NCBI GenBank assembly: GCA_026707735.1
Contig: JAPOWH010000008.1
Span: forward strand, 1-64,000
Reading direction: 5' to 3'
Source: Gammaproteobacteria bacterium
GTDB lineage: Bacteria; Pseudomonadota; Gammaproteobacteria; Pseudomonadales; Azotimanducaceae
Length of the DNA stretch: 64,000 nucleotides
Shown: positions 4,105 to 41,112 of the stretch, piece by piece
How positions within the stretch are numbered: the stretch's first letter is position 1
Layout: every line of letters starts with the position of its first letter
Position numbers and translations under genes: made by a program
Notes under the pieces: model-generated
Seen by the model: the letters and a program-made list of their open reading frames with translations, nothing else
What the model was told of the DNA's origin: nothing
Databases searched by the model: none

Positions 4105-4884
4105 ATGACCGCGCAATCGACGTCAATACCCAGCCAAAACGTCCCATTGGAGGAGGTAGGCGGAACGTATTGGTCCTATGCGTCACCCCTTGCAGGTGTT
4201 GTGATCGATACGCGAGAGGATCTAGAGACTCCGGAAGGAGCAATCATGCACGTCCGGCCTGCTGGGATTGCAATTCGCGCCGGCGCCTTCCTAGTGGATG
4301 AAATGATAAAGATGTGCATCAATGCAGCTGTCTGGTTTCTGGCGGGAATCATTCTGTCTGGACGGCTTGGCATGATGATATTCGTTCTCACGATGTTTCT
4401 CGTGATGTGGTTCTACGGGGTTCTTTTCGAGATCTTCAACGACGGACGCACACCTGGCAAAGCCATGGTCAACTTGAAGACCGTAAATGCTGACGGCACT
4501 CCCATTCGACTGCCCGCATCGCTTATTCGCAATATCTTCAAAGTTGTGGAAGGGATTCCACTTCTCGGCATCCCCGCTGTAGCAAGCATGGCCATCACCA
4601 AGAATTTCAAGAGAATCGGAGATGTCGTAGCCAATACTATCGTGGTCTACGATGACAAACCACCAGTATTGAAAAATTCGGCAGCCGTTGCGGCAAAGCC
4701 GCTGCCTACGAACCTCACGGCAGAGGAGCAGGTCATTCTGTTGGAGTATCAATCTCGATCGGCATCCTTTTCCCGTCCGCGTGCCACGGAACTGGCGGAA
4801 ATCCTAGAAGTGCTTCACGGTGAATCCGGAGAGGAAGCAGTCGACGCGACGCTGGGGTATGCGCAAGGTATTCGCGGCCAATGA
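4105..4884 (+). CDS. RDD family membrane protein, first gene of MoxR/DUF58 operon
   Basis: This is a 259-aa integral membrane protein with an RDD domain. A membrane helix begins near residue 52 with the Arg and Asp in AIRAGAFLVDEM, a second hydrophobic stretch follows, and the family motif GRTPGKAMVNLKTV lies in the centre. The end of the domain, FKRIGDVVANTIVVYD, is also typical. A soluble ~70-residue tail follows. RDD proteins are poorly defined; some have been linked to ion exchange. It overlaps the next gene (SpoIIM-like) by four bases (ATGA), so translation is probably coupled. The next five genes form the standard cluster around a MoxR ATPase. Confidence 0.88.
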   Translation: MTAQSTSIPSQNVPLEEVGGTYWSYASPLAGVVIDTREDLETPEGAIMHVRPAGIAIRAGAFLVDEMIKMCINAAVWFLAGIILSGRLGMMIFVLTMFLVMWFYGVLFEIFNDGRTPGKAMVNLKTVNADGTPIRLPASLIRNIFKVVEGIPLLGIPAVASMAITKNFKRIGDVVANTIVVYDDKPPVLKNSAAVAAKPLPTNLTAEEQVILLEYQSRSASFSRPRATELAEILEVLHGESGEEAVDATLGYAQGIRGQ

Positions 4885-5885
4885 AACAGGACTACTTTGT
4901 CAAATCTCGATCGAAAAGCTGGGACGACTATCTTGAAGCACTAGCAGAGTATGAGAAGAAACCGTCGCATGCAAGGAGACTTGCTCCACAGGAATTCGTT
5001 GCCAGCTATCGGAACATTGCCAGAGACCTTGCGGTTGCACACTCTCGCAACTACAGCAACGATCTAGTAAATCGACTAAACGATTTGGCAGTTCGGGGGC
5101 ACAACATTGTCTATGTGAGCCGATCCGGATGGATGGCAAAGTTCCTTGAGTTCCTTTCTCATGGGTTTCCTCAGAGCGTTCGCGAACACGGAAGAATTCT
5201 ATTACTGTCTGTGTGCTTGGTGATGATCCCAGCGTTGATCGTCAGTGCACTCATCGTTGAGGACGACCAAAACGTCCACTCAGTCCTCTCTGCAGGAATG
5301 ATTGAACAAATCGAAACAATGTACGACCCAAACGCTAGAAGCCCAGGCCAAATTACCGAAGCCGATTCTAGGGTCCACGCGTTCGGACTCTACATTCTAA
5401 ACAACGCTTCCATTGGATTGAGGACGTTCGCGCTTGGCATTTTTTTCGGCTTGGGCACCGTGTATGTTCTGGTCTACAACGGCGTAATTCTTTCTGCGAT
5501 TTTCACCCACCTACTAGTCGCAGGATACAGTTCCACTCTCTTGCCATTTGTCGCTGGACACAGCGCAATGGAACTGACGGCAGTCGCTATAGCCGGAGCG
5601 GCCGGTCTCCGACTTGGCAAAGCGACGGTTGCCCCAGGCGAATTGTCAAGATCAACGGCGATTCTGCAAGGTGGTCGAAAAGCGGTTGTACTTGCATTCG
5701 GTTCCTTTCTTATGTTTGTGGCTGCCGCATTCATCGAAGCCTTTTGGTCGGCGCTGCAGTTGCTACCGACTATCAAATACACCGTAGGTATAGTCATGTG
5801 GTTGCTGGTAATCGGCTACTTCATGTTTATCGGTCGCCGAGGTGACCAATCGAGCACCACCGCATCGTCGCAATTCACTACTTAA
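4881..5885 (+). CDS. SpoIIM-like (stage II sporulation protein M family) membrane protein
   Basis: This 334-aa protein has a soluble N-terminal part of ~100 residues, then about six hydrophobic segments (from residue ~110 onward). The sequence HGFPQSVREHGRILLLS followed by IGLRTFALGIFFGLGTVYVL and LLPFVAGHSAMELTAVAI is characteristic of the SpoIIM/DUF95 family. The name does not imply sporulation: in proteobacteria the family sits in MoxR-DUF58-RDD clusters, as here. The start overlaps the stop of the RDD gene (ATGA) and the next gene begins six bases after its stop. The role is unknown; a membrane complex served by the MoxR ATPase is inferred from context. Confidence 0.88.
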   Translation: MKQDYFVKSRSKSWDDYLEALAEYEKKPSHARRLAPQEFVASYRNIARDLAVAHSRNYSNDLVNRLNDLAVRGHNIVYVSRSGWMAKFLEFLSHGFPQSVREHGRILLLSVCLVMIPALIVSALIVEDDQNVHSVLSAGMIEQIETMYDPNARSPGQITEADSRVHAFGLYILNNASIGLRTFALGIFFGLGTVYVLVYNGVILSAIFTHLLVAGYSSTLLPFVAGHSAMELTAVAIAGAAGLRLGKATVAPGELSRSTAILQGGRKAVVLAFGSFLMFVAAAFIEAFWSALQLLPTIKYTVGIVMWLLVIGYFMFIGRRGDQSSTTASSQFTT

Positions 5886-36493: not shown

Positions 36494-37456
36494 TCAATTT
36501 TTCTGCATGGTTTTTGGCACGTCTCGCAACCAATCTGTTAATGCCTTAGCGACTTCGGTCGGAGCATCTTCCGGCACGAAGTGCCCGGCATTGACGGTTA
36601 TTTCAGTTTGATTGGCCCAGCTCCTGCAGAACTCGCGTTGCGATCCTGTTAGGATCGCGCCAGGCGCGGCATTTATGAAAAGTTTTGGTACCACGCTTGA
36701 GCGTAGCCAATCAGAATAGCGATCTGCAATTTCGCACACGTCTGAAGGGGCTCCTTCTATTGGAATCTGTCTTGGCCAGGTCAACGTTGGACGCCGGGCC
36801 TCACCGTTGCGTAAGAAGGGTCGACGATACTCATCCATCACCTCGGGCGCAAGGGTGCTCAACACAGAGCCAGGAAGCACACGTTCGACAAAGAGGTTTT
36901 TCTCAAGAATCATTTCCTCGCCAGCTTCAGATCGGAATCCCTGAAATATCCGTCGCGCCTCTACGGGCCACTCATCCCAAGTCAGCTGCCTAACCAATGC
37001 TTCCATATAGCAAATGCCTCGGACTTGCCGTGGATGAATATGGCACCAATGAAATGCCAAAGCCGATCCCCAATCGTGAACGACAAACACGACTTTCTGG
37101 CGTCCCACGAGCTTGTTCAACGCCAGTTCGAAATAGTGAAATTGCTCCTGAAATCCATAACTTGATGCTGTGGATTTGGCTAGCTTGTCAGAATCGCCCA
37201 TGCCGAGCAGATCCAAGGCTATGCAACGGAACTGATTAGCCAATGCAGGCATGATTTTGCGCCATAGATAGCTAGAAGTTGGGTTGCCATGTTGAAAGAC
37301 AACGGGCATTCCGTCGCCGATTTCGACATACGCAATGTTCACTCCTCCCACTTCAACGAATTTCTTGGGAAACCGCATCAATCGATCGTCTGCTGCTCGA
37401 ATTCTGCACATGATTGTAGGGAGGAGTCCTTGTCTGATCGGTTCTGCACAGGCCAT
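36494..37456 (-). CDS. Haloalkane dehalogenase, subfamily II-like
   Basis: This alpha/beta hydrolase cleaves carbon-halogen bonds of haloalkanes to alcohols. In the 320-aa frame the full catalytic set is visible: nucleophile Asp128 and halide-binding Trp129 (VVHDWGSALAFHW), second halide ligand Asn58 (QHGNPTSSYLWR), acid Glu152 (CYMEALVRQLTWDEWP) and base His292 (NAGHFVPEDAP). The Glu position after strand six and the cap sequence resemble DhaA/LinB-type enzymes. The true start could be downstream (Met at 37411 or 37378), since the first ~26 residues are outside the family pattern and no start has a clear ribosome site. Confidence 0.88.
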   Translation of the reverse strand: MACAEPIRQGLLPTIMCRIRAADDRLMRFPKKFVEVGGVNIAYVEIGDGMPVVFQHGNPTSSYLWRKIMPALANQFRCIALDLLGMGDSDKLAKSTASSYGFQEQFHYFELALNKLVGRQKVVFVVHDWGSALAFHWCHIHPRQVRGICYMEALVRQLTWDEWPVEARRIFQGFRSEAGEEMILEKNLFVERVLPGSVLSTLAPEVMDEYRRPFLRNGEARRPTLTWPRQIPIEGAPSDVCEIADRYSDWLRSSVVPKLFINAAPGAILTGSQREFCRSWANQTEITVNAGHFVPEDAPTEVAKALTDWLRDVPKTMQKN

Positions 37457-37626
37457 TGGATAGAGAAGCCTAGAGCTACTAGTTCAATCTTGTCGTCAAG
37501 CTCACCTTTCATGCAGGTGTCCCGCATTGCTGACAAGACGCATTGAATTAAGTCCTCAATTTTGTTAGATCTCCACATGTTCCGGGATCCAATGGCGTGC
37601 TACGCATGTAGGTTAGCCTAGGGCCG

Positions 37627-38256
37627 GTGAGTAGACTGCGCTACACTAGCAAAGAGTTTCCTTGGAGCGCTTTCTTGGCATTTACATTCCACTTCGTAAA
37701 GGGCTCGCAACCATACCCGCGAATCTACGACGAAATTTCCCTAGACAACAGAGCTGCGCTTGCTCCTGCACAATTGTGGGGAGCTTTCTACGGTTTGTTC
37801 GGCCTAGGGTCCAACGAGCTCATTGTCATGTCAGTCGGTGACAATGCAGGAGCGCACACCGTTCTGGACGCAATGGAGACTACCAGAGTGATTCGGTCCA
37901 TTAACCTTGAGCCTACTGTGCGACCTTCTAACGAACAGCCCGTGACCAAGAGTGGTCTCTATGTGTTCAGGTTCTTTGGCGTGCATAGCAAGGACATCGA
38001 TAAGATCGCGCAGCTCTCCAAGGAAGCTTGGACGTACTTTGAGGACTCCACCAGTTACAAAGCGGAACCACAAGGCTTGTTCTGCGAAACCGATCGGCAA
38101 AAGGAACACGGTCTAATGCTGCTTGTCACTTGGTATGACGGACTCAATTCCTGGCAGGTTTCTCGTCGCCCCGCCCCCGAAGCAACAAGGAACTTTCGAC
38201 AACGAGCTGCATTGACCACATTTACCAAGCCGTTTGCTACGCGGCTGATCGTGTGA
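37627..38256 (+). CDS. Hypothetical protein, possibly dimeric alpha/beta-barrel (NIPSNAP-like)
   Basis: This 209-aa protein starts at GTG. No named domain is certain. The C-terminal half (residues ~110-200: GLYVFRFFGVHSKDIDKIAQ, then HGLMLLVTWYDGLNSWQ and a helix RNFRQRAALT) has the strand-helix-strand rhythm of dimeric ferredoxin-like barrels such as NIPSNAP or stress-response A/B proteins. The N-terminal half could be a degenerate second copy. No signal or membrane helix is seen. It stands alone, divergent from the dehalogenase, and converges with the broken P450 gene. Confidence 0.6.
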   Translation: MSRLRYTSKEFPWSAFLAFTFHFVKGSQPYPRIYDEISLDNRAALAPAQLWGAFYGLFGLGSNELIVMSVGDNAGAHTVLDAMETTRVIRSINLEPTVRPSNEQPVTKSGLYVFRFFGVHSKDIDKIAQLSKEAWTYFEDSTSYKAEPQGLFCETDRQKEHGLMLLVTWYDGLNSWQVSRRPAPEATRNFRQRAALTTFTKPFATRLIV

Positions 38257-38347: not shown

Positions 38348-39687
38348 CTAGAACCTTGGACGTAGCTTCACGGGCAAATGCTTGATGCTATGGAGGAAGT
38401 TGGACCAAACGTAGACTGGGTCTCCTACAACCTCAACCTGTGCAAACCGCTTGTGGATTTCTTCCCATAGAACGCGCAATTGCATCTCTGCCAGCCTGTA
38501 GCCAAGGCATCGATGAATGCCAATCCCAAATCCCAAGTGCTTACGAGCATTCTCGCGATCAATTTGAAAGACATTTGCGTTGGGAATCGCGTCTTCGTCA
38601 CGATTGCCGGATATGTACCACAGCGCGAACCTGTCCCCTTGTTTGATTGACTTTCCGCGAAATTCGCAGTCCTGCGTCGCGGTCCTCGCCATGTGGGCGA
38701 TTGGAATCGCACTATTTCTGACACCATGTTGGGGATCAAATTGGGATCTTCCAGCAGCTTTTGGTACTCCTCTGGAAACTGATTGAGGAAGAGAACGCCA
38801 CCGGAGATCGAATTACGCGTTGTGTCGTTGCCCCCCACGATCAACAGAAGCAGGTTTCCTAACAACTCGTTCGGCGGCATGTTTCGCGTTGCTTCGCCGT
38901 GCGCCAGCATTGAAATGAGGTCGTTCCCGACTTGCTTTTCTTTCTTGCGCGCTTCGAAAACTTCTGAAAAATATGCGTGGCACTTCCAAAGTTCCTCGAA
39001 CGCAAGCCCAACAGACTTGAACGCAAGTGGATTGGACATGTTTTGGACAGTGTCTGACCAATGAATGAGAAGATTGCGGTCCTCTTGGGGAATGTCAAAT
39101 AACGTCGCCAACATCCGACCCGTCAAATCGATCGAAACATTCGGCACCCAGTCAAACTCCTCGTTCAGGGGCAACCCATCGAGAATCTCCGCGGCACGCT
39201 CCCGGATTACAGGTTCCAGCAGTTGCAATGGACGTTGCAAGAACAAAGGCTGAACCACACCGCGTTGCTCCCCGTGCTTAGGTGGATCCATCATGATGAA
39301 CATCGGCAAATTGAATTTTGGATCCGGTTGATCGGAGTCGTAGGGCTGACCTCCAATTTGAATCCCGCCGTATCTCTGCTCAGAAGAGAAAAGGTCGTAG
39401 CGCTTCTCCATTTCAACGATATCGTTGTATTTCGTAACCGACCAATGGGCACCGTACATTCCACCCGGGCAAAAATGCAGCGGATCTTCCTTTCGCAGTC
39501 GTTCAAAGTACGGAAAAATTGTGTCGGACTCGAAAAGACTGGGATGAGAAGGATCCAGCTGATCCAAGGGTATTTCGTAGGGATCTCGATGTGGATCTAT
39601 TGCAAACTCAGCTTTGATCTCCTCGTTGGAGGTTGCAAATCGTTCGTTGATGGGTGCTTGATAGTCGCGGGTATGTATTTCGCTCAT
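38348..39687 (-). pseudogene. CYP153-type cytochrome P450 (alkane hydroxylase), frameshifted
   Basis: The N-terminal ~310 residues read in one frame from 39687 and the remaining ~110 in another frame ending at 38348. Together they form a full ~446-aa P450. Marks are the I-helix LLLLIVGGNDTTRNSISGG, the K-helix EIVR, and the haem-binding FGIGIHRCLG. MFIMMDPPKHGEQR and NDLISMLAHGEATRN point to CYP153, soluble P450s that hydroxylate alkane ends using ferredoxin. The break lies at about 38698-38704, and adding one more copy of CGATTGG restores the family sequence exactly. The gene may be dead, phase-variable, or misassembled. No ferredoxin genes are adjacent. Confidence 0.88.
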
Positions 39688-39807: not shown

Positions 39808-40953
39808 CTAGTATCCGTTGAGCTCTCCGTAACGATTGCGATGAAAATACATGTCTCCAAACGTCTGTTCCGCTACAGCAGCACGCTTGATAAAGAATCC
39901 GATGTCAAACTCGTCAGTCATTCCTATGCCACCGTGCATCTGAATGCCTTCGCGGGAAACGGTGTGAAACATCTCTCCGATCTTAGCCTTGGCCAAACTC
40001 GCCAATATGGCAATTTCTTTGGCGTCGCGGCCTTCGTCCAAGGCGGTTAGCGCTTCCAAAACCACTGACTTAGACAGTTCAACCTCGCAAAACATGTTGG
40101 CTGCACGATGCTTCAGCGCTTGAAAAGAGCCGATAGGAACGCCAAATTGCACTCGATCCTTCAAATATTGAACAGTTCGTTCAAAACATTCTTGCGCACT
40201 TCCGAGCATTTCGGCTGCAAGTCCAATACGAGCGATGTCGAGTGTTGGATCAAGAACTTCTGCACCGTTGTCGATTTCTCCAATCACGCTGTCCGCGCCT
40301 ACATGAACGTTGTCAAACTCGATATTGGCCGCGTTCCGACTGTCCACCATGATCGTGCGGGTAACGTTTAGTCCTTCGCTAGCGGCATCAACTACGAACA
40401 GCGAAATTCCTGCTCGCTCACCGGGGTTTCCCGAGGTACGAGCAGCGACAAGCAATTGATTGGCCACATGTCCGTCAAGCACAAATGTCTTCTTTCCGGA
40501 CAACAAAAAACCCTCTGAGTTTCTTGTTGCTGTAGCAGCTACGCCGTAAGGGTCATGCTTGTGGCTCTCTTCCAGAGCGAGGGCCAGCAGCGTTTCCCCG
40601 GTGACGACTCCTCCGAGCAACTCCGACTTCTGCGTTTCAGTTCCTCCCATGCTCACAGCTGTGCCTCCAACCCACACTGTGGCAAATAGAGGGCTAGCCG
40701 TCAACGTTCTTCCTGTCTCCTCAGTTACTACTCCCAGCCCCTTGTAGCCGAAATTCAGCCCGCCAACACTTTCCGGAAACGGAATCGCAGCCCAGCCAAG
40801 CTCGACCATCGATTTCCAAGTTTCGGGATCAAAGCCATCGACCGAATTGTCGTCACGGAGCTTTCTCAGCTGAGAGATTGGAGCTTTCTCAGAACAGAAT
40901 TCACGGGCCGTATCCCTAAGAATGGTTTGATCTTCATTGAGAATCATTGGCAT
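39808..40953 (-). CDS. Acyl-CoA dehydrogenase family protein
   Basis: This FAD enzyme is expected to oxidise acyl-CoA at C2-C3. From ATG 40953 it is 381 aa; the frame runs 21 codons further upstream, but the family start is MILNEDQTILRDTAREF. The flavin-binding middle domain includes LALALEESHKHDPYGV and LSGKKTFVLDG. The C-terminal helices contain RVQFGVPIGSFQALKHRAAN and QMHGGIGMTDEFDIGFFIKR. The catalytic Glu at the usual C-terminal site is not obvious, as in FadE28/FadE-type partners that work as heteromers. It lies upstream of the CYP153 gene on the same strand. Confidence 0.9.
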   Translation of the reverse strand: MPMILNEDQTILRDTAREFCSEKAPISQLRKLRDDNSVDGFDPETWKSMVELGWAAIPFPESVGGLNFGYKGLGVVTEETGRTLTASPLFATVWVGGTAVSMGGTETQKSELLGGVVTGETLLALALEESHKHDPYGVAATATRNSEGFLLSGKKTFVLDGHVANQLLVAARTSGNPGERAGISLFVVDAASEGLNVTRTIMVDSRNAANIEFDNVHVGADSVIGEIDNGAEVLDPTLDIARIGLAAEMLGSAQECFERTVQYLKDRVQFGVPIGSFQALKHRAANMFCEVELSKSVVLEALTALDEGRDAKEIAILASLAKAKIGEMFHTVSREGIQMHGGIGMTDEFDIGFFIKRAAVAEQTFGDMYFHRNRYGELNGY

Positions 40954-41112
40954 ATTGCGATGTCTGCTACTAGTCGAGCAGCCTCCTTCTTGACGGCGCG
41001 GCAGAACGCGCTCCATCCCCTACGTTCGTGATCCGCCGGAATCGTGTGGCCGGCCACATGCTCATGCAGTGTCGTTTAGACGACGGAGCTAATTGTAACG
41101 ATGCATGACGAG

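Follow-up and report, generated by a model that had tools for sequence, protein, structure and literature searches.

The CYP153 family of cytochromes P450, whose members hydroxylate alkanes or fatty acids at the terminal position, is delimited by more than approximately 40% identity to its named members, and its proteins carry the P450 signatures GGNDTT, ExxR and the haem motif (FxxGxxxCxG). Two further described systems are relevant here. Small deletions between short direct repeats are a known class of events generating pseudogenes, and phase-variable genes, such as those of Neisseria and Haemophilus, carry tandem repeat arrays.

The stretch of DNA analysed here (64,000 nucleotides in length, referred to as the window) belongs to an 85-kb contig of an uncultured gammaproteobacterium and contains a P450 gene that resembles the CYP153 family in its GGNDTT, ExxR and haem motifs and in that CYP153A7 (PDB 3rwl), CYP153D17 (5h1z) and 8b2p rank with the best solved-structure matches of its two halves. 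It differs from the family in that the frame is broken, with 7 bases missing between the part containing ExxR and that containing the haem motif. The gene is also like the pseudogenes produced by direct-repeat deletion, since a small deletion is found where one of the two nearest relatives, G007 (the other being G003, both of the same genus as the window), has a short direct repeat of the same spacing, although such a repeat in the window's own ancestor can only be presumed. With the phase-variable genes of Neisseria and Haemophilus the shared idea would be a change in repeat number that shifts the frame; unlike those genes, the P450 junction has no array able to gain or lose units, but one copy of a repeat that is not conserved. 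No frame-broken CYP153 gene is mentioned in the titles and abstract openings listed by the literature searches.

The features under discussion, in window coordinates, are as follows.

39687-38348, minus strand: CYP153-like P450 gene, whole, in two reading frames
38698-39687, minus strand: 5′ part of the gene, 330 codons; best PDB match CYP153A7 (E 1.2e-87)
38693-38697, minus strand: frame junction; 5 bases versus 12 in relatives, 7 missing
38348-38692, minus strand: 3′ part of the gene in the other frame; 114 amino acids from an internal ATG, with FGIGIHRCLG
38425-39687, minus strand: reading frame truly open from the P450 start codon; 420 amino acids, the last approximately 90 out of frame
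39808-40977, minus strand: acyl-CoA dehydrogenase-like gene, directly upstream of the P450; adjoins it in G007 and G003 too
37627-38256, plus strand: ORF without Pfam or NCBIfam match; adjoins the P450 in G007 and G003 too
36494-37456, minus strand: haloalkane dehalogenase (NCBIfam equivalog NF002938, 378.7 bits, cut-off 241)

A CYP153 gene in two reading frames

The match to CYP153 proteins in the first frame (39687 to 38698) ends at ...EIVRFQS, and the matching frame is picked up again at 38692 (MARTATQDCEF...) to continue to a stop at 38348. The initial annotation had described a gene in two frames meeting at this point, and both this layout and the coding-strand letters that it quoted for the junction are confirmed. 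GGNDTT and the ExxR helix (EIVR) lie in the 5′ part and the haem motif FGIGIHRCLG in the 3′ part, the signatures ExxR and FxxGxxxCxG being thus both present, one per frame.

The assignment to CYP153, also made in the initial annotation, is borne out by each half: the 5′ part shares 146 of 288 aligned residues with CYP153A7, its top solved-structure match, and 64 of 111 residues of the 3′ part are identical to 8b2p, a chain titled alkane hydroxylase (E 7.8e-38; CYP153A7 follows with E 1.1e-33), so that each exceeds approximately 40% identity. In domain scans, the 3′ part scores above the cut-off of the Pfam P450 model and the 5′ part taken by itself is unmatched in Pfam at E 0.001; neither Rfam (at its gathering threshold) nor a tRNA scan gave any hit in the window.

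A single open frame for a haem-binding protein is not present in this gene, being divided between two frames with 7 bases absent, and the 420-residue open product is without the haem cysteine. Because that haem-ligand cysteine sits in the downstream frame, the 420-residue product should be dead. Judged from its sequence, the gene is a CYP153 pseudogene rather than a CYP153 enzyme.

Seven bases missing at the junction

The link between the matched halves amounts to 5 bases in the window and to 12 in all 58 loci outside this genome that join cleanly (50 distinct genes), counting only loci whose match starts at query residue 1 and reaches residue 330; L004, the nearest other P450 of the same genome, falls outside the count by this rule. 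Seven bases are therefore missing from the window, and the 7-base loss claimed from the sequence alone is upheld by comparison at the same locus. The two halves share 74.5% and 80.0% identity, respectively, with G007, and 72.4% and 76.4% with G003, so the two-frame pattern is not a matter of chance. Furthermore, both relatives read SPIAHM at the site, which makes Pro-Ile the most likely missing residues, in support of the earlier proposal.

The break is isolated on the contig. When ORFs of G007 of at least 120 amino acids were compared with the contig and matches below 50% identity were dropped, the P450 was the sole frame break among 44 matches, and the same single break was found among 41 matches of G003 ORFs. 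In the reverse direction, window ORFs gave 48 matches in G007, with the P450 break only, and 44 in G003, with the P450 break and one split on the G003 side; some antisense ORFs in these lists may be spurious, and breaks near gene ends could escape the survey. With a single break among the ORF matches surveyed, the record appears poor in frame errors. The split on the G003 side concerns the match to window ORF 4881-5885, which lies in two frames at approximately 87369-88408 of G003:C118 and is a possible frame break in G003.

Constraint and age of the lesion

Apart from the junction, coding is unbroken: the 1332 bases of the two halves contain no further stops or frame-breaking indels. For the invariant columns, 49 relatives (loci L007-L035 and L043-L062) were gathered, and the columns were defined on the 48 that were aligned with the window after removal of repeats; L036-L042 (copies, by identity, of genomes already present), the frame-broken L063 and the additional copy of the gene in L043 were excluded. 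None of the 53 invariant positions of the 5′ part or of the 24 of the 3′ part is changed in the window (0/77 together), a comparison of limited power because, in leave-one-out tests, 37 of the 48 relatives (5′ part) and 41 of the 48 (3′ part) also deviate nowhere. The view that the rest of the gene, including the haem motif, is intact is thus supported. In the comparison with G007, pN lies well below pS in each half, the values being 0.166 and 0.848 in the 5′ part and 0.148 and 0.796 in the 3′ part.

When neutral decay was simulated without indels, a median of 18 substitutions elapsed before a first stop, and 95% of the runs had acquired one by 76 (approximately 0.057 per site), the 95% point dropping to 34 or 20 events when 5 or 10% of the events were indels. 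Synonymous sites are saturated between the window and its nearest relatives, which indicates that the lesion arose long after that split. A dN/dS clock for the lesion was dropped on account of the same saturation. Of the possibilities raised initially, recent inactivation is favoured by the single lesion and by the invariant positions that have been kept.

Differences unique to the window, counted at codon positions 1, 2 and 3, are 15, 12 and 19 in the 3′ part of the P450 (27 at positions 1 and 2 versus 19), 44, 29 and 91 in the acyl-CoA dehydrogenase (73 versus 91) and 50, 31 and 44 in the intact neighbouring ORF 37627-38256 (81 versus 44). The lean of the 3′ part to positions 1 and 2 might hint at relaxed constraint, in raw counts and with the intact neighbour leaning more.

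Probable deletion route and alternative explanations

The observations are best explained, with a probability of roughly 0.75, by an ordinary recent, probably one-way loss-of-function deletion of 7 bases in a CYP153 gene. A vertically inherited, single-copy CYP153-type P450 gene would have been recently inactivated, probably by replication slippage or by short-homology misalignment between CCAAT-like direct repeats that, by chance, may have been spaced by 7 bases within the codons for Gln-Ser-Pro-Ile. The shift just past the ExxR helix would give approximately 90 wrong residues, and the cysteine that binds the haem iron would never be made; the product should be inactive and the loss, in effect, one-way. 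The deletion route, the age of the lesion and the loss of activity are the parts of this reading that we infer.

As to the route, the initial annotation had proposed the contraction of two exact 7-base copies to one. The 7-base loss stands, whereas the exact two-copy repeat is unproven: the window junction holds one copy of the unit only, an earlier second copy would have to be assumed, and the lost unit is unreadable from the window, because any seven letters comprising the third base of the Ser codon and the next two codons leave the present sequence. G007 has TCCAAT twice at the site with a 7-base spacing (a period-7 run of 6) and no exact 7-base tandem, and this 6-base repeat in the nearest relative makes slippage, or a short-homology deletion, a plausible route. 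A period-7 run of at least 6 is found at the site in one of the 50 distinct relatives and one of at least 5 in two, and an exact 7-base repeat is absent in all 50; the repeat seems to have arisen incidentally from the codons used in a few lineages rather than to be a kept feature. Nor are such tandems frequent on the 85-kb contig, where five two-copy 7-base tandems were seen as separate loci and 4.6 ± 1.7 were expected (second-order Markov model, 12 simulated sequences). An apparent excess by position count in the window (10 versus 3.35 in mononucleotide shuffles) was gone in this contig locus count. A perfect 7-base tandem (AATCCCA twice, plus strand) does occur at 38522-38535, within the haem-motif codons of the P450, where the haem motif is equal in length to that of the relatives.

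The main rival to the deletion is an error in the consensus, by which the organism would have an intact gene and seven bases would have been lost in assembly or a minority variant recorded. That all but seven bases of the gene looks functional, and that the assembly is a draft consisting of 29 contigs, speaks for such an error; the P450 as the only frame break among the 44 matches of G007 ORFs speaks against it, as do the lack, at the junction, of any homopolymer of more than 3 bases or of a tandem array, and base-calling errors do not typically remove 7 bases. The stretch is also single-copy, a DNA search of the genome returning its own locus and 11 short matches, none with an E value better than 0.02, and sequencing reads are far longer than a 14-base repeat. 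An assembly collapse, which had been suggested as one cause, is on these two grounds unlikely, and for a consensus error as a whole we consider the odds low, though not negligible.

Far less probable is that the gene still works, either by −1 recoding, the protein then lacking two residues, or in the form of two pieces, the one with the haem motif being started from the internal ATG at 38692. That both halves are open and conserved speaks for this, but by eye there is neither a slippery heptamer at the junction nor a Shine-Dalgarno-like stretch ahead of the internal ATG, the two missing residues adjoin the ExxR helix, and we know of no P450 split between its ExxR and haem parts. A reversible slippage switch of an alkane hydroxylase, also raised initially, is highly improbable and finds no support: the 6-base repeat with 7-base spacing in G007 would suit it, but the single copy remaining in the window offers no template to slip back, the repeat is unconserved among the relatives, the contig has no more 7-base tandems than expected by chance, and known phase-variation switches use longer repeat arrays.

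Neighbourhood and other candidate hydroxylases

Four of eight tested neighbours are found near the P450 in the 20-kb stretches of both G007 and G003, namely the acyl-CoA dehydrogenase, ORF 37627-38256, an enoyl-CoA hydratase and a 347-residue ORF. Absent from these stretches are the haloalkane dehalogenase, an Ldh_2-family dehydrogenase, a peroxiredoxin-like and a GST-like gene, which lie approximately 14 kb farther off in G007, the matching DNA of G003 being approximately 16 kb off. At the point corresponding to window 37456-37627, G007 has a block of approximately 13.7 kb with eight ORFs of at least 180 amino acids, of which seven have a counterpart in the contig of G003 and none matches the 85-kb contig at E 1e-10.

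No second CYP153 copy was found in the window's own genome, this gene being the sole match at E ≤ 1e-40. Four other P450 matches occur there; the nearest (C10, L004) shares 26% identity with the 5′ part and 41.5% with the 3′ part, and L001-L003 gave no match to the P450 query at E 1e-10. The genome also has three matches to the FA_desaturase family, each no more than a candidate AlkB-type hydroxylase.

The P450 across the genus and implications

Among 17 other genomes of the genus, the P450 frame is open (at least 445 amino acids) in 12. In G009, another species of the genus, the frame of the orthologue (L063 4001-5297; L066 9398-10694; G009:C82) is broken by a one-base shift that falls between query residues 184 and 185, near 4513-4515 of L063, and which, as read from the sequences, is independent of the window lesion. 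In G016 the P450 is cut by a contig end, with the junction unbroken; G013 matches solely in the 3′ part, at 56%, and no P450 match was found in the draft genomes G004 and G011. On the basis of the 7-base loss described here, the independent one-base break in G009 and the lack of a match in G004 and G011, we would put forward, tentatively and as the less probable case, that the CYP153 step has been repeatedly and recently lost in the genus, as a parallel erosion of a once useful hydroxylase.

On its own, the P450 lesion is a routine recent pseudogene. Its main value is as a caution for reading hydroxylation potential off draft genomes: a domain scan reports a P450 here, the 3′ part passing Pfam, where the gene as recorded could not yield a haem-binding enzyme, so that such potential can be overstated. 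If the break in G009 is also real, the genus would offer a modest natural example of an enzyme being lost more than once.
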